Made by a program: the position numbers and the translations under genes
In this document: piece after piece, positions 4,222 to 63,185 of the stretch
How the letters are laid out: the number at the start of each line of letters is the position of its first letter
Numbering within the stretch: position 1 is the stretch's first letter
The notes under the pieces: generated by a model
Told to the model about the DNA's origin: nothing
What the model saw: the letters and a program-made list of their open reading frames with translations, nothing else
Database searches by the model: none
Source of the DNA: Ruminococcaceae bacterium Marseille-P2935
Lineage (GTDB): Bacteria > Bacillota > Clostridia > Oscillospirales > Ruminococcaceae
Direction: 5' to 3'
Assembly: GCA_900104565.1 (NCBI GenBank)
Contig: LT629952.1
Span: forward strand, 1,301,604-1,365,603
DNA: 64,000 nucleotides

Positions 4222-4510
4222 CTGCTTCCTCCAAAGCCTTTTGCGCAATCCAGTCAACCGCCCGGAAAATAAATTCCTTCGTTTTCTGGTTTTCCGCGCC
4301 GCTTGCCGCTATCGATATCCGCACTGCACGCTCTACACTGCGCCATGTCACACCAAATTTACCGGCTACCAAAACGTATACGTCGCCCATCCTGCTCAGG
4401 CTCGACCGATCCTGCAGCCCCATTTCAATCATCTCCAGTATGTACTGGTACCCTTTTAAGCTGTGCAAAAAACAAAGCTTGTCCAAATAATCGGCAATCT
4501 CTTTTTCCAT
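4208..4510 (-). CDS. Spo0A C-terminal-domain protein encoded by the prophage
   Basis: About 100 residues. The stretch LKGYQYILEMIEMGL, then MGDVYVLVAGKFGVTWRSVERAVRISI matches the sigma-A-contacting, DNA-binding effector domain of Spo0A, with helix-turn-helix residues VTWRSVERAVR preserved. The receiver domain of Spo0A is missing entirely, so the protein would not need phosphorylation. It is a phage early gene preceded by a hypothetical gene. I prefer ATG 4510 (MEKEIADYL) but a start at 4549, directly after the upstream stop codon, is possible. It may reprogram sporulation genes or serve as a phage regulator. Confidence 0.75.
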   Translation of the reverse strand: MEKEIADYLDKLCFLHSLKGYQYILEMIEMGLQDRSSLSRMGDVYVLVAGKFGVTWRSVERAVRISIAASGAENQKTKEFIFRAVDWIAQKALEEADERL

Positions 4511-4549
4511 GCAATACACCTGCCTGTCCTGTTTATTTTCAGCAAGCAT

Positions 4550-4849
4550 TTACGCCTGCTCGTCAGCTATCCGCTGGCAAATTTCCCCCAGACGGTCCAG
4601 TGTTCTTTCCCATTCTTCCGGGGTTGGCTTTATTTTCCGCCCGATCACCACCGAACCAAGAGAGGTCAAAAAGAACTCCCTCTCATCATCTATGGGAATA
4701 GAATCTTTATTAATCAGCGTGGCTTTTCGTTCCGGCGGTATCTCCCACGGCTTAGGAAGTTTCGTAAAATCCCCCCTAAGTGGGTCAAACTTCAAATAAT
4801 GTTCGCCATTGTTGTCAACAAAAATTCCTCCCGGCCTGTCGTCCTTCAT
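4550..4849 (-). CDS. Hypothetical phage protein
   Basis: A 99-residue acidic protein, first of the leftward early block. Starts at ATG 4849 behind a GGGAGGTG site. It has a Gly/Pro-rich N-terminus (RPGGIFVDNNGEHYLKFDP) and a helical C-terminus. No family recognised. Confidence 0.5.
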   Translation of the reverse strand: MKDDRPGGIFVDNNGEHYLKFDPLRGDFTKLPKPWEIPPERKATLINKDSIPIDDEREFFLTSLGSVVIGRKIKPTPEEWERTLDRLGEICQRIADEQA

Positions 4850-5032
4850 TGCCGTTCACCTCCCGCTAATCCTTATGTTGTTTTCCGGTTGTCCTATGCA
4901 ATACTAACTTTTTTTCATTTCTTGACGGTTGTACACCCCTGTGATATGCTAAAAGAGTTAAAAACACTTGAAATAGTTTTTCAACAGTATGAAAAGTACC
5001 CTGTAGTTTTCAGCATTATTTCAACAATGGCA

Positions 5033-54954: not shown

Positions 54955-57126
54955 TTATGCCTTTAAATTGGCCGCATCGACCGCACGCAGCCTGCTGCCT
55001 TCCCCCTGATACCCCTTGCGGAATAACAGATAAAGATACGCAGCCAATACAAAAACTGCCGCCAGCGTACCAATTCCCCAGCCCTCAGTGAAAACAAGGC
55101 CAAATTGATAAACCATAAATGCAACCGTATACGCAAACAGGGTTTGGTACCCAATTGCAAACCAGGTCCACTTTGCATGATTCATCTCGCGTTTGATCGC
55201 ACCAATCGCGGCAAAGCAGGGTGCGCACAGCAGATTAAACACCAAAAAGGAATAGGCCGACAGTGCTGTAAAGTGCTGTGCAATCGCACCCAGCTGGCTA
55301 AATGCGCCTTCCTCAACCAGCTGCAGGGCATCCCCCGAAACGCCATACAGTACCCCAAATACGCCGACTACTTCTTCTTTGGCAACCAGCCCAAGCACCG
55401 TAGCCACCGAAGACTGCCAGTTACCAAATCCAAGCGGTACGAAAATGGGCGCCAACAGCCCGCCAATCAGTGCCAGCAGCGAAGAATCCATATTCTCTAC
55501 CATGCCAAACGACCCATTGGCAAAGCCAAAACTCTTGGCAAACCAAACCACAATACTTGCCAACAGAATGACAGTACCGGCCTTTTTGATAAAAGACCAT
55601 CCACGTTCCCAGGTTCCCCTCAGCACATTGACAAGGGTAGGCAGATGATAAGGCGGAAGCTCCATCACAAAAGGCGCTGGATCCCCTGCAAACAACCTGG
55701 TCTTTTTTAAAATAATGCCCGAAACAACTATGGCTGCCACACCAATAAAATATGCAGACGGAGCCACCCACCAGGCGCCCCCGAACAACGCACCGGCAAT
55801 AAGGGCCACTATGGGCATTTTGGCTCCACAGGGTATAAAGGTTGTGGTCATAATAGTCATTTTGCGGTCCCTGTCCTGTTCAATGGTACGGGAAGCCATA
55901 ATACCCGGGACGCCGCACCCTGACCCAATCAGCATAGGAATAAACGATTTGCCCGACAGCCCAAACCGGCGGAAGATACGGTCCATAATAAAGGCTACCC
56001 TGGCCATATAGCCGCAATCCTCCAACAGGCACAGCAATAAAAACAAAATCAGCATCTGCGGCACAAAACCCAGCACTGCACCAACTCCGCCAATCATTCC
56101 TTCGGTAATTAATCCGACCAGCCAATCTGCGGTGCCAATGGTCACCAAAAAGCTCTCGGCTGCAGGAATAATCCACTCGCCAAAGAGTGTATCGTTCATA
56201 AAGCCGGTGACTAAATCCCCTACCGAGGAGATAGAAATATAATAAACCAGTACCATAATCACAGCAAAAATCGGCAGCGCCAGCCAACGGTTGGTTACAA
56301 TCCGGTCTATTTTGTCCGAAAGGGTCGTTCCGGTTTTGGATTTTTTCACACACTGTTTGACAACTCTGCCAATATATTCATACCGTTCGCTGGTAATAAT
56401 GCTTTCGCTGTCATCATCCAGCTGTGCCTCACAAGCGGTGATCAGCCGTTCTATCTGATCCTGCTGACCGGCCGAGAGCTGTACTTGCTCCATTGCTTTT
56501 TCGTCCCGTTCGAACAGCTTAATCGCCGTCCACCGCAGGTTGCATAGCGGCTGTTGCTGCTCTAAAATCTGCGCAATCCCCTGCAAGGCTTGTTCCACCC
56601 TGCTGCTGAAGGTATGCTGAGGAACCATTTTCCCTCCCGACTTTACAACTGCTGCCGCTTTTTCCGCAGCCTCCCTGCAGCCCTTCCCCCTGACCGCCGA
56701 GGTTTCTATAATTGGGCAGCCCAGTGTTTTCGAAAGCTTTTCCACATCAATCTGATCGCCGTTTTTATGTACCACATCCATCATATTCAGCGCAATTACG
56801 ACCGGAATTCCCATTTCGGTCAGCTGGGTTGTCAGGTAAAGGTTGCGCTCAATGTTGGATGCATCCACCAGATTTAATATAACGTCCGGCCTGTCTTTCA
56901 GCAGGTAATTTCTGGTTACTACCTCTTCCAACGTGTAGGGAGAAAGCGAATAAATTCCAGGAAGGTCGGTGATGACCACATCTTTTTGATTTTTCAGCTT
57001 TCCTTCCTTTTTTTCTACCGTTACCCCTGGCCAATTGCCCACAAACTGGTTCGACCCGGTCAGTTCGTTAAACATGGTTGTTTTTCCACAGTTTGGGTTG
57101 CCTGCAAGCGCTATTTTTATTGCCAT
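54955..57126 (-). CDS. feoB: Ferrous iron transporter FeoB
   Basis: A 723-residue transporter. The N-terminal G domain has GNPNCGKT (9-16), the G2/switch I Thr, DLPG (54-57) and NMMD (113-116). The following helical domain leads to about nine to ten membrane helices with two Gate motifs, including GSGCGVPGIMASRT and FIPCGAKMPIVALIAG, whose Cys residues line the pore. It imports Fe2+. A GTTAGC-type operator lies 55 bp upstream of its start, so it may also be controlled separately from the feoA genes. Length is normal. Confidence 0.97.
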   Translation of the reverse strand: MAIKIALAGNPNCGKTTMFNELTGSNQFVGNWPGVTVEKKEGKLKNQKDVVITDLPGIYSLSPYTLEEVVTRNYLLKDRPDVILNLVDASNIERNLYLTTQLTEMGIPVVIALNMMDVVHKNGDQIDVEKLSKTLGCPIIETSAVRGKGCREAAEKAAAVVKSGGKMVPQHTFSSRVEQALQGIAQILEQQQPLCNLRWTAIKLFERDEKAMEQVQLSAGQQDQIERLITACEAQLDDDSESIITSERYEYIGRVVKQCVKKSKTGTTLSDKIDRIVTNRWLALPIFAVIMVLVYYISISSVGDLVTGFMNDTLFGEWIIPAAESFLVTIGTADWLVGLITEGMIGGVGAVLGFVPQMLILFLLLCLLEDCGYMARVAFIMDRIFRRFGLSGKSFIPMLIGSGCGVPGIMASRTIEQDRDRKMTIMTTTFIPCGAKMPIVALIAGALFGGAWWVAPSAYFIGVAAIVVSGIILKKTRLFAGDPAPFVMELPPYHLPTLVNVLRGTWERGWSFIKKAGTVILLASIVVWFAKSFGFANGSFGMVENMDSSLLALIGGLLAPIFVPLGFGNWQSSVATVLGLVAKEEVVGVFGVLYGVSGDALQLVEEGAFSQLGAIAQHFTALSAYSFLVFNLLCAPCFAAIGAIKREMNHAKWTWFAIGYQTLFAYTVAFMVYQFGLVFTEGWGIGTLAAVFVLAAYLYLLFRKGYQGEGSRLRAVDAANLKA

Positions 57127-57180
57127 AAATATTCCTCCTCTGCGGGTGTTTCCCGCTGGCTTTCGCCTTTGAAGTCTAAA

Positions 57181-57198
57181 GGTTAGCTATCGCTAACC
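57181..57198. promoter_or_regulatory. DtxR-family operator upstream of feoB
   Basis: Perfect 18-bp dyad GGTTAGC-TATC-GCTAACC. It matches the sites next to the DtxR-family gene at 58.2 kb and lies between feoA and feoB, indicating an internal, iron-regulated control point. Confidence 0.8.
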
Positions 57199-57430
57199 TA
57201 CGGGTGCCATACTGGATGAAGTTTTGATACAAATCATAAATTGGGCACATAATTACCCTTTTGGTCCTGTTCTGCACAGAATAAACCGCGGCCAGCTGTT
57301 CTTAATGCAGGGGGGCTTTCCTCAAATTCTTTTTAAAAGCTTTTTACAACGGAACAATTTCATGCTGAACAAAACCACAACAAAGCCGGCCAGTAAAATC
57401 TAATCTGCTTTTAAACAGCCCTTTTCATGC

Positions 57431-57652
57431 TTATTCCACCAAAATTTTTTCTGCGTCATCTTTTCGTATGGTCAATTCATAGCCACGCACGGTAATCTCT
57501 ACCGGGTCGCCCAATGGCGCTACCTTACGCACAAAAATATCGACCCCTTTGGTTATTCCCATGTCCATAATCCGGCGTTTTACCACTCCTTCCCCCTGCA
57601 GCTTTGCAACAGTAATGGTTTCTCCGCATTTAATTTGCCGCAACGTTCTCAT
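57431..57652 (-). CDS. feoA: FeoA domain protein
   Basis: A 73-residue SH3-like FeoA protein (GETITVAKLQGEGVVKRRIM, DMGITKGVDIFVRKVAPLGD, PVEITVRGYELTIRKDDA). It is preceded by AGGAGGAG. FeoA is a small cytosolic partner required for Fe2+ uptake by FeoB. It lies about 300 bp upstream of feoB in the same direction. Confidence 0.95.
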   Translation of the reverse strand: MRTLRQIKCGETITVAKLQGEGVVKRRIMDMGITKGVDIFVRKVAPLGDPVEITVRGYELTIRKDDAEKILVE

Positions 57653-57944
57653 GTTCTCCTCCTTTATTTATTACAATATTTTTTGCCTTCTAACGGCTTT
57701 TTGTTAGGAATCCCTATCAGCCGCTTTGAAAAATGCCAGGAAAGCTATGACGGCCGGCCGCTCATAACAGCGAATAAGGCTAACATCCACAACAACAGTT
57801 CACCCGCAGTGCTGGCAAACAACTAAATAAACGCGCCATTCAGGCTGCGCTCTGTCTTTGAACGGATAATATCACCCAGCTTCGTTTTGCTCGTCAACCG
57901 CATTTGCCGGTTTTAGCATAATAGCCCTGCCTCCATTACCAGAG

Positions 57945-58160
57945 CTAAACCAGTATCCGGTTGGCCATGCTGCTGCTTAGGGCAACCCTTGTATCTTTTA
58001 TTCGAACGATCAGGCTGCCGCCAAGTCTGGATACGACAGTTACACTGGCACCTTCTAAAAAACCCATGCTTGCTAAAAAATGGCGGGTCTCGTCTTTCCC
58101 TCCAACCTTTTTTACGGTGTTGTTCTCCCCTTCACGGGCCATGGTCAGTGGCATTGGCAT
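57945..58160 (-). CDS. feoA: Second FeoA domain protein
   Basis: A 71-residue FeoA-like protein (TVKKVGGKDETRHFLASMGF, LEGASVTVVSRLGGSLIVRI, then ALSSSMANRILV). It differs strongly from the other FeoA in sequence, so the two are not a recent duplication. It is the first gene of the feo transcription unit, behind a promoter with three operators, and divergent from the DtxR-family regulator gene. Confidence 0.93.
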   Translation of the reverse strand: MPMPLTMAREGENNTVKKVGGKDETRHFLASMGFLEGASVTVVSRLGGSLIVRIKDTRVALSSSMANRILV

Positions 58161-58179
58161 AATCCCCTTTCCCCCAGTA

Positions 58180-58274
58180 GTTAGCCACTGCTAACCACAA
58201 GGTTAAAAATTTAGGTTAGCAATTGCTAACCTTTTTTCAAAATTGAGTTTACCACTGCTAACCATATTTGTCAA
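58180..58274. promoter_or_regulatory. feo promoter with three DtxR-type operators
   Basis: Leftward promoter TTGACA (58274-58269), 17-base gap, TAAACT (58251-58246). Three related dyads: GTTTACC-ACT-GCTAAC (58247-58262, inside the promoter), GGTTAGC-AATT-GCTAACC (58214-58231) and GTTAGC-CACT-GCTAAC (58180-58195). The divergent regulator gene starts at 58361, so both directions may be controlled. Confidence 0.8.
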
Positions 58275-58360
58275 CAATAATTTCAAAAGTTTTGCAACTT
58301 GCGGCAGGTAGGTGGTTATGCTACAATAAAAACAGTTCCATCGGTGGAAGGAGATGCGGC

Positions 58361-58750
58361 ATGAAAATTCAGGAATCTGCCGAAAATTATCTGGAAGCGA
58401 TCCTTATTTTAAAGCAGGAAAAAGGTGCTGTACGTTCTGTTGACGTGGCGCATTTTCTTAATTTTACCAAGCCCAGTGTCAGCAGGGCCATGAGCCTGCT
58501 GCGGGAGCGCGGCCAGGTTGCTATGGATGACGAGGGCTTTATTGAACTAACTCAGGCCGGATATGAAAAGGCTAAAAGCATTGATGAGCGGCATAGGCTG
58601 ATCACCAAATGGCTTACAGTTTTGGGGGTATCTCCGCAGATAGCTGCCGAAGATGCCTGCCGGATTGAGCACGACATCAGTGAGGAAACTTTTCAGCGCT
58701 TAAAAGAGCATATTGCCAAGAATACATCGAATAACGATTCACTAAAATAG
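58361..58750 (+). CDS. DtxR/MntR-family metal-dependent repressor
   Basis: A 129-residue protein, ATG 58361 behind GGAAGGAG. The N-terminal winged HTH (ESAENYLEAILILKQEKGAV, VDVAHFLNFTKPSVSRAMSL) and the metal-binding/dimerisation segment (HRLITKWLTVLGVSPQIAAE, DACRIEHDISEETFQRLKEH) match short DtxR/IdeR/MntR proteins that lack the SH3 domain. HRLI, E, C and EH residues form the expected metal site. Divergent from the feo operon and flanked by its likely operators, so it is the probable Fe2+ sensor of this locus. Confidence 0.92.
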   Translation: MKIQESAENYLEAILILKQEKGAVRSVDVAHFLNFTKPSVSRAMSLLRERGQVAMDDEGFIELTQAGYEKAKSIDERHRLITKWLTVLGVSPQIAAEDACRIEHDISEETFQRLKEHIAKNTSNNDSLK

Positions 58751-58992: not shown

Positions 58993-59613
58993 ATGAAGCA
59001 CCAAACCTATGGATACGTCCGGGTTTCTACTCGGGAGCAAAATGAAGACCGACAGCTAATTGCAATGAAGGAATTTCATGTACCGGAACACAATATTTTT
59101 ATAGACAAATTAAGCGGAAAGGATTTTTATCGCCCGCGTTACCTGGAACTGATCAAAAAGGTTCATAAGGGCGACCTAATTGTGGTAAAAAGTATTGACC
59201 GGCTGGGAAGAAACTACAACGACATTAAGGAACAATGGAGAATTCTGACACGGGAAAAAGAGGTAGACCTTGTAGTTTTGGACATGCCGTTATTAGATAC
59301 CCGCCAAGGCAAGGACCTGCTGGGTACATTAATCAGTGATATTGTTCTGCAGTTGCTTTCGTTTGTCGCACAAAGTGAAAGAGAAAATATTCGGCAGCGG
59401 CAGGCAGAAGGGATCAGGGCTGCCAAATTAAAAGGCGTTCGATTTGGAAGGCCACCCAAACCGCTGAAAAACTCCTTCACCTATGTAAAGCATCAATGGC
59501 AGGCCGGGCAGGTTACAGCAAAACAGGCTGCCGCCATGCTGGGGATTTGCGAGCGAACCTTTTTTCGCAAAATAAAAGCCGCCCATTCAGGCGGCGCTTC
59601 GCAAAATGTATAA
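58993..59613 (+). CDS. Small serine recombinase (resolvase/invertase), probable promoter invertase
   Basis: A 206-residue protein, ATG 58993 behind TTGGAGGAAG. Catalytic domain: YVRVSTREQ with the nucleophile Ser at residue 12, IDKLSGKDFYRPRY, VKSIDRLGRNYNDI (Arg residues) and the long E helix (LLSFVAQSERENIRQRQAEG). It ends in a Hin-type helix-turn-helix (QVTAKQAAAMLGICERTFFRKI). This is the size and layout of DNA invertases and Tn3-type resolvases. Its stop codon is 6 bases from one of two inverted 22-bp dyads that fit invertase crossover sites, so it most likely flips the adjacent promoter segment. Confidence 0.93.
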   Translation: MKHQTYGYVRVSTREQNEDRQLIAMKEFHVPEHNIFIDKLSGKDFYRPRYLELIKKVHKGDLIVVKSIDRLGRNYNDIKEQWRILTREKEVDLVVLDMPLLDTRQGKDLLGTLISDIVLQLLSFVAQSERENIRQRQAEGIRAAKLKGVRFGRPPKPLKNSFTYVKHQWQAGQVTAKQAAAMLGICERTFFRKIKAAHSGGASQNV

Positions 59614-59618
59614 TTGTA

Positions 59619-59640
59619 GACAAATGGTACACTTTTTGTC
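59619..59640. repeat. Left crossover-like inverted site
   Basis: Dyad of two 10-bp half-sites, GACAAATGGT and (reverse) GACAAAAAGT, around a central AC at 59629-59630. It is an inverted match to the site at 59765-59786, with a 15-bp identical core (59627-59641). Confidence 0.8.
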
Positions 59641-59691
59641 AAAAATCACCATCATACATAAAACCTGCTATCAACTGGTATTTTCTTAATA

Positions 59692-59720
59692 ATTATAAAC
59701 ATATAGCATTATTTTGTCAA
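59692..59720 (-). promoter_or_regulatory. Consensus SigA promoter inside the invertible segment, currently facing left
   Basis: Minus strand TTGACA (59720-59715), exactly 17 bases, TATAAT (59697-59692): a perfect consensus promoter. As sequenced it reads toward and antisense to the recombinase gene; inversion between the flanking sites would place it about 90 bases upstream of the ATG at 59809, reading right. Confidence 0.85.
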
Positions 59721-59764
59721 ATTAATAGCTATAAAATAATCCATTTACTGGAAGAAAAAGAGCT

Positions 59765-59786
59765 GACAAAAAGTGTACTTTATGTC
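59765..59786. repeat. Right crossover-like inverted site
   Basis: Dyad with half-sites GACAAAAAGT and (reverse) GACATAAAGT around a central GT at 59775-59776. Read from the other strand the centre is AC, identical to the left site, as required for productive inversion by a serine recombinase. It ends 22 bases before the next start codon. Confidence 0.8.
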
Positions 59787-59808
59787 ATATGAAGGAGGCA
59801 AATAAACC

Positions 59809-60060
59809 ATGCTAAAAACCAGTCTTTTAGAAGAATTGGCAAAAGAATGCGGCTGCATGTACCTTTCTGATCTGCCAAGGTTAGAACATTTTTCTATCAT
59901 GCTTCCTGTTATCCCCCACCTTTCGGGGTTTAGTTGCAGGGAATGGAGCGATGCTGCAACCTATATCTTTGGGGAGCCGGTTTCATTTGACCGGGAAGAA
60001 AGTGCAAAGTCCTTCTTTTATCAAACAATCCGGTATCGAAGTAAACTGCCGCAGCGGTAA
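59809..60060 (+). CDS. 83-aa protein of unknown function under the invertible promoter
   Basis: Starts at ATG 59809 behind GAAGGAGG. The sequence (SLLEELAKECGCMYLSDLPR, then a central HFSIMLPVIPHLSGFSCREW and a final SAKSFFYQTIRYRSKLPQR) shows no signal peptide or known motif; a mixed helical fold and a role as regulator or recombination-directionality factor are only guesses. The lack of its own promoter between the right site and the ribosome binding site argues that it depends on the flipped promoter. Two Cys lie near the start (CGC) and one in the middle. Confidence 0.65.
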   Translation: MLKTSLLEELAKECGCMYLSDLPRLEHFSIMLPVIPHLSGFSCREWSDAATYIFGEPVSFDREESAKSFFYQTIRYRSKLPQR

Positions 60061-60150: not shown

Positions 60151-60392
60151 GAAATGAATCATTGGCTGTCTTGGCAAATTAACATGCTTAATCGAAACCG
60201 ATGAAAAATAGGGCCCTGCCGGTAATTCCGGGGGTGGTATAGAATAAAATACCTTTTTAAAAATCCATTTATTCTGATCACCGGCCATATGGCAACAGCA
60301 AATAAAAACTGCCTTGGGCAGTTTTAAAAAATAAATTAGAAACGCTCGTTAAAGCCAATGAATCATTCATTGCTTTAGCGAGTTTTTTTATA
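60151..60392 (+). ncRNA. Candidate riboswitch-like attenuator leader upstream of the surface protein
   Basis: About 240 bases from a promoter to a strong terminator (stem 60345-60363 / 60365-60382, then seven T). The first bases of the transcript, 60153-60167, are complementary at 14 of 15 positions to 60353-60367, the left arm of that terminator. The two pairings exclude each other, as in a terminator/antiterminator switch. Internal hairpins include ATCG-AAAC-CGAT, CCGG-TAATT-CCGG and AAACTGCC-TTG-GGCAGTTT. I could not match it to a riboswitch class from memory. A standalone small RNA is the alternative. Confidence 0.5.
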
Positions 60393-60602: not shown

Positions 60603-63185
60603 ATGAAACGGCCTATCATATGGTTGGCAGCGGCGTTGTGTACGGTACTGGCTACCGCTATGCTGCTGCCCCTTCCGGCTGCTGCACAGGAGGCGCCTGC
60701 CCCTGCGGCAGTTGCGGAAATCACCCTTCAGCCTGCTGCCGGAGACCCCTCCAGCCATGCTACGATTCAAGAAGCTGTAAACCATGCAGCGGATGGGGAT
60801 ACTATTTTACTTTCAGCCGGGGAGTATACCGAAAATATAACCATTCCCCATAACCTTACCATCACCGGTACAGGAAGCAGCAGCTGCAAGGTGACCGGCC
60901 AGTGGACAGTAAGCGAAAGCTGCTCCATTACCGGGCTTACATTGGAATATAACGAAGCCGACCCCAATATTACCGGCAGTACTGTGGTGCGGGTGTACGG
61001 AATGCAGAAAAAACTAACCCTTACCGACTGTATCATCAGCCAGCTTGGCAATGCCGGCGGTATTGCCTTGGGCGGCTCAGCCGATAACCCGTTGGCAGAA
61101 ACTTCCACTCAACCTATGCTGGAGCTGAAGCGCACCGGTATTTCTGCGGCAAACGGCTGCAGCGGTCTGCTTCTGCGTGATCTGAATTCCTCTGTCAGCC
61201 TGCAGGACTGCACCGTTTCTATTTGGGGCGGCACTGCCCCCCTCGTTCAATACTCTGCCGACGGAGGGCAGGTAATATTGGCTGGTAATAATCAATTTTT
61301 CCGCTCAGCTACCGGGCAAAAGGCTTATTTGGAAAATGCCGGGGACGGCAGTTTTCTTAACGTGTATTCACAGCTTACCGGTGCAGTAAACCTAGCCAGA
61401 GCAGGTTCCACCATCACACTCCCTGAGGGGACCCATACAGCCGATCTTACCATAAACCGTTCCCTGACAATAAAAGCTGAGCCGGCAGAAACCGGAAAAC
61501 CTGTACCGGTTGTTATTTTAGAAGGGCATCTGACAGGCGGCGAAGGGGAGGGGAACCTGACCTTATCGGGCATTACCCTTACCGGCACCAGGGGTGCTGC
61601 AATCACCCAGGCTTTAAACAGCAAAATTGGGTTTACCTTGCAAAACTGCAAGGTTTCCGGCTACGATCAGGCCATTCTGCTGCAAAGCAGCTTGCCTGCA
61701 GGTATTATGGTAAACAACACCCGATTTTCAGGAATCAAACAGGCAGCCATAGAAGGCCTGCAATTTGCAGGGCGTGCCGTAATGAGTGGTAACACCTTTC
61801 AAGACTGCGGAATTGGCATATCAACTGACGGAACTGCCAAAACCTCAGGTGTTCTGAATTTCGACACACTGTTCACAAGTAATCGGTTCAACGGCAACCA
61901 GGCAGATATCCGCTACCAGCAAAAGGTAGGCGGGGTGCTGATTCCTCCGGCAAATGTGCGGGCCGCCTCTTCCTCACCGGTTACTCTTTCCGGCAATTCT
62001 TTGGGCTTGGGCAATTCTGCCACAAACGCTAAAATTCTTCTGCTCTCCCCCTACCCTGACCCTGCCGCCGCATTGGTGGGAATTCAGCCCGGAGATACCA
62101 TCTTGCTGACAGAATCCTTTGTACTGTCCTCTCCCCTGGAGCTTGGCACCTCTGTTACGCTAAACGGCATGGGGAATACTCTTTCAGCCTCCAACAGTTT
62201 TTCAGGGCAAAGCCTTGTGCGCATTACGGCAGACAACACTTCCCTTCTTCAGCTTAGCCTGAATGCCCAGGGTATCAGCTACGCGGCAGAAGTTCACTCT
62301 GCTACTGGGGTGGCCTGCTCTGCAATCACATTAAAAAACAGCCGGAATTCCGGGCTGCTTTTGGACAGCGCTCAGCTTGCCATCAACAACATTACCCTAG
62401 AAAATAATTCCAAGGCTGGTGTTCGGGTTGTAAAGTATAGCGGGCTGTCGCCCTCCCTTTCCATAACCGGGACATTTACATTTGCAAAGCAGCCGGGTAC
62501 TATTCTTTTGATAGAACCCTCTGCTGCCGATACCCCTGTTGCCCTTCCGGCGGGAACAAACCTTTCCGTCCAAGCAGGCACTGATGGGTCTGTCCGATAT
62601 GTTAAGACGTCCGATGGTACACAGGGCTACACCGACTATGCTAATGAAGAATTTACTTTTTGGCGCGATGTTGAGCGTCAGGTTTGGGACGCCCAAAAGA
62701 AAGACGTCATCACTGTTAAGGCAAAGGACTATACAGAAGTTCCTGTTACGCTTTTAAAATCACTCAAGGGAAAAGACGTAACCCTTGTCATCACTGGCAA
62801 TAGCACCGACCCAATTACGATTCATGGCAGCCAGGTGCAGCCCATTGAACAAAATCGTATTTACTACCCTATTAAAGAATTGGCAAAGCTATATCAACAA
62901 GTTGTATCCTCCCAGGCACCGTCCGTTCCCGCTGTTTCTTCCAGGCCTACTATCTCATCCTCCAGCGCCGCCCCTCCTCCCCCCGTCTCATCTGCCCCTG
63001 CCGAGGCACAGCAGCCTGAAACGCCTCCCTCCAGCAGCGAAGCACCAGCCGATCCGGTGATTACCCCAGATCCGCCTCAGCGGGAATCTATGCCGCTTTG
63101 GCCGATTATTGCAGGGGCCGCTGCATTAGGCCTTTTTATTCTGGTTTTAATCATAAATCTGATCATACGCAAAAACAGGCCATAA
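60603..63185 (+). CDS. Large secreted beta-helix surface protein with C-terminal membrane anchor
   Basis: An 860-residue protein, ATG 60603 behind AGGAGGTGG. A signal peptide (RPIIWLAAALCTVLATAMLL, cleavage near AAAQ) is followed by about 700 residues of right-handed parallel beta-helix: ATIQEAVNHAADGDTILLSA, GEYTENITIPHNLTITGTGS and many repeats of the G-x-T-L-x-N-C type, as in pectate-lyase-like and adhesin proteins. A Pro/Ser-rich wall-spanning linker (about 780-830) and one membrane helix with RKNRP tail close it. It could be an adhesin or a polysaccharide-binding or -cleaving protein; no catalytic signature was seen. It is the likely output of the leader switch and perhaps of the invertible promoter. 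Confidence 0.85.
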   Translation: MKRPIIWLAAALCTVLATAMLLPLPAAAQEAPAPAAVAEITLQPAAGDPSSHATIQEAVNHAADGDTILLSAGEYTENITIPHNLTITGTGSSSCKVTGQWTVSESCSITGLTLEYNEADPNITGSTVVRVYGMQKKLTLTDCIISQLGNAGGIALGGSADNPLAETSTQPMLELKRTGISAANGCSGLLLRDLNSSVSLQDCTVSIWGGTAPLVQYSADGGQVILAGNNQFFRSATGQKAYLENAGDGSFLNVYSQLTGAVNLARAGSTITLPEGTHTADLTINRSLTIKAEPAETGKPVPVVILEGHLTGGEGEGNLTLSGITLTGTRGAAITQALNSKIGFTLQNCKVSGYDQAILLQSSLPAGIMVNNTRFSGIKQAAIEGLQFAGRAVMSGNTFQDCGIGISTDGTAKTSGVLNFDTLFTSNRFNGNQADIRYQQKVGGVLIPPANVRAASSSPVTLSGNSLGLGNSATNAKILLLSPYPDPAAALVGIQPGDTILLTESFVLSSPLELGTSVTLNGMGNTLSASNSFSGQSLVRITADNTSLLQLSLNAQGISYAAEVHSATGVACSAITLKNSRNSGLLLDSAQLAINNITLENNSKAGVRVVKYSGLSPSLSITGTFTFAKQPGTILLIEPSAADTPVALPAGTNLSVQAGTDGSVRYVKTSDGTQGYTDYANEEFTFWRDVERQVWDAQKKDVITVKAKDYTEVPVTLLKSLKGKDVTLVITGNSTDPITIHGSQVQPIEQNRIYYPIKELAKLYQQVVSSQAPSVPAVSSRPTISSSSAAPPPPVSSAPAEAQQPETPPSSSEAPADPVITPDPPQRESMPLWPIIAGAAALGLFILVLIINLIIRKNRP

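Follow-up and report, generated by a model that had tools for sequence, protein, structure and literature searches.

The window analysed here is a stretch of 64,000 nucleotides from Ruminococcaceae bacterium Marseille-P2935, and the locus of interest within it consists of a recombinase gene, two inverted repeats enclosing a promoter, and a short reading frame followed by terminator-like hairpins. The features are as follows.

58993-59613, plus strand: small serine recombinase of the DNA invertase type, 206 aa (Pfam Resolvase, PHROG and PDB matches)
59578-59595, minus strand: hairpin resembling a leftward intrinsic terminator in the 3' end of the recombinase gene, with a T-run running on leftward (-14 kcal/mol, z -1.6)
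59642-59613, leftward: promoter-like TTGACA-18-TACAAT overlapping the left site (promoter scan)
59619-59640, plus strand: predicted left recombination site, centre AC at 59629-59630 (sequence, repeat search, genome pattern scan; kept in relatives)
59631-59774, no strand assigned: predicted invertible segment, 144 bases between the crossover dinucleotides (sequence, repeat search; its counterpart is inverted between the related loci L025 and L060)
59692-59720, minus strand: sigma-70-type promoter TTGACA-17-TATAAT, pointing toward the recombinase (the presumed OFF state; 12/12 in the promoter scan)
59765-59786, minus strand: predicted right recombination site, inverted, centre GT at 59775-59776 (sequence, repeat search, genome pattern scan)
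59792-59798, plus strand: ribosome-binding site AAGGAGG for the 83-aa gene (sequence)
59809-60060, plus strand: 83-aa protein of a four-helix family, the predicted switched gene (family alignment A1; model pLDDT 91)
60305-60325, no strand assigned: terminator-like hairpin (z -2.8)
60344-60383, plus strand: strong rightward terminator, a hairpin followed by T7, insulating the next gene at 60603 (fold 60335-60392, -24.3 kcal/mol, z -8.4)

A repeat search found the two dyads to be 87% complementary over 23 bases and agrees with the initial annotation in placing the second one at 59765-59786 in inverted orientation. The perfect 15-base core common to both sites (59627-59641 and 59764-59778), the central dinucleotide reading AC at both once they are oriented alike and the 144 bases between the crossovers, all claimed before, were confirmed in the sequence, and so was the perfect leftward TTGACA-N17-TATAAT promoter between the sites; when the segment was shuffled 30 times, a promoter score this high came up 0 times. 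The left dyad does lie as close behind the recombinase gene as had been described, with five intervening bases instead of the six claimed, as it begins at 59619. Allowing three mismatches, the site pattern occurs in the 2.67-Mb genome (7 contigs) at the window's two sites and at one further place with three mismatches, and a backward control version of the pattern gave 0 matches in the same 2.67 Mb.

The recombinase itself is full length and matches Pfam Resolvase (5.7e-28), PHROG 125 (DNA invertase, 6e-51) and the PDB entry 2r0q of Tn552 bin3/Sin (8.5e-29), with VSxxxQ and SIDRLGRNYN aligned. With its Resolvase domain, the catalytic Ser12 and the arginine motif DRLGR (69-73) it has the characters of a small serine recombinase, and its score of 51.1 bits against the Mpi family NF009949 of NCBIfam falls below the cut-off of 272. 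Two inverted dyadic sites with an identical central dinucleotide are what is expected of a serine DNA invertase, and a promoter between inverted repeats that is aimed at a gene in one of the two orientations is what defines an inverton; the window shows both features. There is one copy of the recombinase in the genome, the sole other match being a remote stretch with an E value of 1e-3. A master invertase acting in trans in this genome was considered and rejected, since only two sites exist genome-wide.

Upstream of the switch, in the region 54955-58750 of the window, lie on the minus strand genes which by their sequences resemble feoB and, in two cases, feoA, and just before the switch a regulator of the iron-dependent-repressor type is found on the plus strand (58268-58750, Pfam). 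Downstream, separated from the switch by the terminators, follows at 60603-63185 a secreted-looking 860-aa beta-helix/NosD-like protein with a C-terminal hydrophobic segment.

We consider it highly probable that the locus is a self-contained ON/OFF phase switch, and very probably it is the neighbouring recombinase that flips the promoter in this organism. The recombinase would bind both 22-bp sites, loop out the short segment, cut at the AC/GT dinucleotide common to both sites and re-join the segment in inverted orientation. In the sequenced state, the OFF state in this model, transcription from the left-facing promoter would probably end at the hairpin in the last codons of the recombinase gene. 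After inversion, in the predicted ON state, transcription would start near 59720, run through a leader of about 90 nt, as calculated before and in agreement with our arithmetic, yield the 83-aa protein only and end at the terminator near 60383. The resulting mixture of ON and OFF cells would then give cell-to-cell variety. As the rightward terminator at 60344-60383 (z -8.4, T-run) stands between the two genes, the 83-aa gene, and not that of the 860-aa protein, is the likely sole target of the switch.

Since one genome alone cannot tell whether such a locus is a switch, we compared relatives of the recombinase in a set of genomes in which the window's own is the single representative of its genus. 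From a contig scan 80 of 142 relatives were kept as a first set, and 73 of these, readable for 250 bases or more past the gene, gave together with the window 74 testable loci, while the other seven were left out because of a contig end or masked bases. Within 500 bases after the recombinase two sites were found at 41 of the 74 loci, one site at 11 and none at 22. A lack of conservation of the dyads beside homologous recombinases had been named beforehand as a refutation of the proposed switch. The switch passes this test, the 41 pairs comparing with 0 in 69 upstream regions and, on average, 0.04 loci in shuffles, although 33 of the 74 loci are without a recognised pair. The central bases, which were not scored in the search, agree in inverted orientation at 40 of the 41 pairs (35 times AC/GT, twice AG, twice AA and once AT, which is its own complement); at the sole exception, L065, a spurious middle site had been picked and the true partner matches.

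Matching centres of this sort are characteristic of sites between which recombination has to remain possible. They also bear on the idea that the dyads are operators for the recombinase-like protein or another factor and that no DNA inversion takes place. Each site is indeed dyadic, and the -10 element ends 18-21 bp before the exit site in 20 of the 34 segments with a called promoter direction (the window departs from this with 52 bp), so that binding could affect transcription. Nevertheless, the asymmetric centre of an operator need not be common to both partners, yet it is at nearly all pairs, and one pair of relatives described below differs by a real inversion, which leaves the operator explanation exceedingly improbable.

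A second set was drawn from the genomes of the order and the family, with 57 loci taken from many more matches and 54 of them long enough. Here site pairs were present at six of the 54 loci by the strict consensus, at 12 by a looser core rule and at 13 by either rule; the looser-rule pairs had no counterpart upstream or in shuffles (0 in both), and their centre agreement is not counted as evidence because that rule penalises differing centres. The two sets overlap in part, as L205 is a near copy of L005, and the recombinases L227, L235 and L243 belong to small-gene loci that had come up before (see below). The many loci at which no site pair was recognised, 33 of 74 in the first set and 41 of 54 by either rule in the second, indicate that many relatives of the recombinase act otherwise or use diverged sites.

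The distance between the two sites turned out to be regular. In the window it is 146 bp from centre to centre, about 14 helical turns, and among the relatives the distances cluster near 126, 136.5, 147 and 157.5 bp, with a best period of 10.5 bp (R 0.743, n = 36 with four near copies and one distance above 230 bp set aside, Rayleigh p ~2e-9) that was reached in strength by 0 of 5000 smoothed controls. The 12 looser-rule pairs of the second set show the same phasing (R 0.83, p 3e-4). All seven serine-type switches located before genes for homologues of the 83-aa protein, L126 and L156 among them, deviate from the phase by no more than 1.4 bp (R 0.91), and phasing is absent from nine tyrosine-recombinase switches before such genes (R 0.24); the arms and coordinates of these seven and nine spacings were compiled by hand. 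We read the phasing as a probable need for both sites to lie on the same side of the helix when the short segment is looped, and it offers a testable statement on how short-range synapsis constrains inversion.

Inversion itself could be followed among the relatives, a comparison which the initial annotation had proposed. An all-against-all alignment of 53 switch segments gave six pairs with an interior score of at least 65. Five of them, three within one trio, have the same orientation, and in the remaining one, L025/L060, the segment is held in opposite orientations: the interiors score 65 when inverted and -4.5 when direct (shuffles: mean -6.9, maximum 12), and the flanks are collinear and align directly, so that the segment only is inverted. 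Assembly traces were found as well. At six of the 80 loci the contig breaks off no more than 250 bp past the recombinase, 1.3 being expected (p 0.002); those of L048 and L072 end right at the left site, and three of the six (L037, L046 and L079) have no recognised site. The contig of L009 reads left flank, segment and reversed left flank at 4429-4975, as expected of an assembler facing both orientations. Taken together, the site pairs, their matching centres, the phasing and the one inversion among relatives lend support to the central claim that a promoter is flipped here and that the sequenced state is probably OFF.

With a simple score, the promoters of the 41 segments were directed toward the recombinase in 28 cases and toward the gene in six, seven being unclear. 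The best promoter score was reached by at most three of 30 shuffles in 22 of the 41 segments, and the promoter calls are weak in about half of the segments. A leftward terminator as in the window was recognised at six of the 41 switch loci (the window and five others) versus 9 of 820 shuffles. The direction bias, and the 35 of 41 loci at which the rule used gave no such terminator, would be in line with a feedback switch in which the leftward OFF transcript represses the recombinase as an antisense RNA and OFF is the stable state. An antisense RNA to the recombinase had indeed been suggested for the window, but this part of the earlier reading is weakened by the hairpin and T-run at 59595-59578, which would stop the transcript within about the last 15 codons; the stop is likely, not certain, as the hairpin folds only modestly better than its shuffles (z -1.6). 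Such a hairpin near the recombinase 3' end at five further loci also speaks against the feedback, and the bias in direction may just as well come from slow flipping or from selection. We therefore regard antisense feedback as unlikely and keep to the simple promoter flip.

For 33 of the 41 loci a first gene behind the switch was identified. A signal-peptide or membrane-like start is predicted for 15 of these 33 (three of the 15 being one near-identical trio) compared with 23 of 210 control ORFs, and a Pfam scan of 27 first genes revealed S-layer, leucine-rich, Listeria-Bacteroides repeat, SHIRT and collagen domains as well as TIR, protein kinase and SPFH domains. The preference for secreted or membrane-like products could suggest that in the window, too, the target is the 860-aa beta-helix surface protein further downstream and not the 83-aa protein. 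However, two hairpins including the strong terminator lie in between, the 83-aa gene has a strong ribosome site of its own and members of its family are found directly behind switches elsewhere, so that we give this alternative a slim chance and retain the 83-aa gene as the likely target. The small protein of the window is unlike these other first-gene products. At L025 (2334-4268) the switch precedes the gene of a TIR and TPR protein, with its relative L060 carrying the segment inverted, and it is possible that this gene serves signalling or defence in a phase-variable manner.

The locus is most unusual in its 83-aa gene, a point which, like the strong terminator on the right of this gene, the initial annotation had not brought out. 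Its product has no match in Pfam, NCBIfam or PHROGs, and each family listed in Pfam or NCBIfam hit just one of the other sequences among the 28 aligned, the best NCBIfam match being 'anti-sigma factor' with 1.7e-4. The family, whose members are about 80 aa in size with L19, S20, L22, W46 and Y52 (window numbering) invariant in the 28 sequences, was detected in 23 of 297 genomes of the taxonomic family and by profile search in 29 of 394 genomes of the order, the own genome being included in both counts. A structure model built from only four sequences predicts four helices (pLDDT 91, pTM 0.80). No convincing fold match to it was found (best E 4.2 with Foldseek, best Z 3.8 with VIA), and a profile search of solved structures with the small protein gave an E of 0.79 at best. 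We infer that the protein is a trans-acting regulator. A second family copy in the own genome (L162, at 185022-185252 on contig C6, in the locus 180000-190000) has no recombinase or repeat upstream; it is part of an operon in which a SpaA-repeat adhesin is encoded ahead of it, and the same neighbours recur in L182, L183 and L187. Pfam gave nothing for two proteins of this operon and the SpaA-repeat adhesin for a third, and we presume that the operon is part of an integrative conjugative element. Another copy, L127, adjoins a TraG-type ATPase. Conserved neighbours were considered as a clue to the role of the small protein and rejected: apart from the recombinases they recur only weakly across the small-gene loci, the operon just described being one of these recurrences.

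In order to see what precedes the small gene elsewhere we surveyed 54 distinct loci, to which L106, for example, does not belong though it does carry a serine recombinase; at L117, L132 and L146-L160 the upstream stretch covered was about 0.4-1.5 kb. A full serine recombinase is located upstream at nine of the 54 loci, a fragment of one at three (L119, L126, L164), serine-type sites with no enzyme in the stretch covered at two (L112, L132) and both enzymes at one (L165, which is identical to L040), thus 15 loci in all with a serine recombinase, its remnant or its sites. A tyrosine recombinase is found at 11 more loci, 12 with L165, these enzymes having been called by similarity to that of L113, for which the Phage_integrase domain was confirmed. 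Inverted repeats flank the segment before the small gene at nine of the 11 tyrosine loci, with scores from 14 to 26 unmatched in 100 shuffles each. Neither enzyme nor serine-type sites were found at 28 loci, among which the repeats of L157 and L150 were equalled in none and in one of 100 shuffles, respectively.

The broken recombinases and the sites without a nearby enzyme could also mean that the locus is a locked relic whose recombinase no longer inverts the segment and whose gene is permanently OFF, and one orientation only is known in this organism. On the other hand, the window's enzyme is full length with intact motifs, its sites share the perfect core and its promoter is perfect, all of which neutral drift would be expected to erode, and a relic is therefore quite improbable when compared with a working switch.

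By its position the small gene is linked to two unrelated classes of predicted invertases, which strongly hints that it matters whether the gene is ON or OFF. In a tree of the 54 small proteins the serine and tyrosine labels are interspersed (8 and 10 changes), which suggests that the gene came under such switches many times independently; with too few columns and 3 of 51 inner branches well supported, the tree does not prove independent captures. We tentatively propose, as a reading we hold with somewhat less than even confidence, that the four-helix protein of about 80 aa is a portable, dose-sensitive regulator that has repeatedly been put under phase control by two unrelated enzymes, in compact serine switches whose sites have to be spaced by whole helical turns and in tyrosine switches.

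Invertible promoters are a known route to diverse bacterial populations. Mpi of Bacteroides fragilis is a serine recombinase that flips promoter segments between inverted sites, the arrangement also proposed for the window. The sites of Hin and Gin are dyads with a common central dinucleotide, and these enzymes belong to the same recombinase superfamily and share the site logic of the window. Sin and Tn552 bin3, closest to the window recombinase among solved structures by sequence, act as resolvases with accessory sites, unlike the inverted single dyads found here. The layout differs from that of the other two as well: according to PMC5903667, Mpi is a master enzyme that acts on at least thirteen dispersed regions and Hin lies inside its own invertible segment, whereas the window enzyme adjoins its only site pair and lies outside the segment, with only 126 bases between the scored 20-base sites. 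Hin is further regulated by a Fis-bound enhancer (PMC3798978). Inversions are known in Clostridia (PMC5903667), among them the flagellar switch of C. difficile (PMC7446863) with RecV, given as a tyrosine-type enzyme in PMC5903667. In a survey based on sequencing reads, inverton group 139, mostly from Clostridia, was tied to a tyrosine recombinase (PMC11892184), and the word 'serine' is absent from its main text. RecV and group 139 resemble the switch described here as short-inversion phase switches in Clostridia and differ in relying on tyrosine recombinases. It may be that group 139 is the counterpart of the tyrosine switches that precede genes of the same small-protein family. Among the titles and abstract beginnings searched, none described such a serine switch from Clostridia or a helical phasing of invertible promoters.

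The locus very probably represents a known type of switch, the invertible promoter, here in compact form with helical phasing and with an output gene that is both unusual and recurrent. To this the analysis adds a minimal serine-recombinase switch that is widespread, mostly in Clostridia judging by the titles of the relatives, and a small protein now marked out behind two unrelated recombinase classes. The site pair, the matching centre and the whole helical turns form a readable signature by which a single assembled genome, even where reads are lacking, suffices for proposing switches of this type. At L040 (4001-5975) and L015 (494-2203) a serine switch precedes a gene whose tyrosine-recombinase domains score weakly in Pfam, and at L040 the small-protein gene follows this tyrosine-recombinase gene, so that the switches at L040/L165 are possibly nested.
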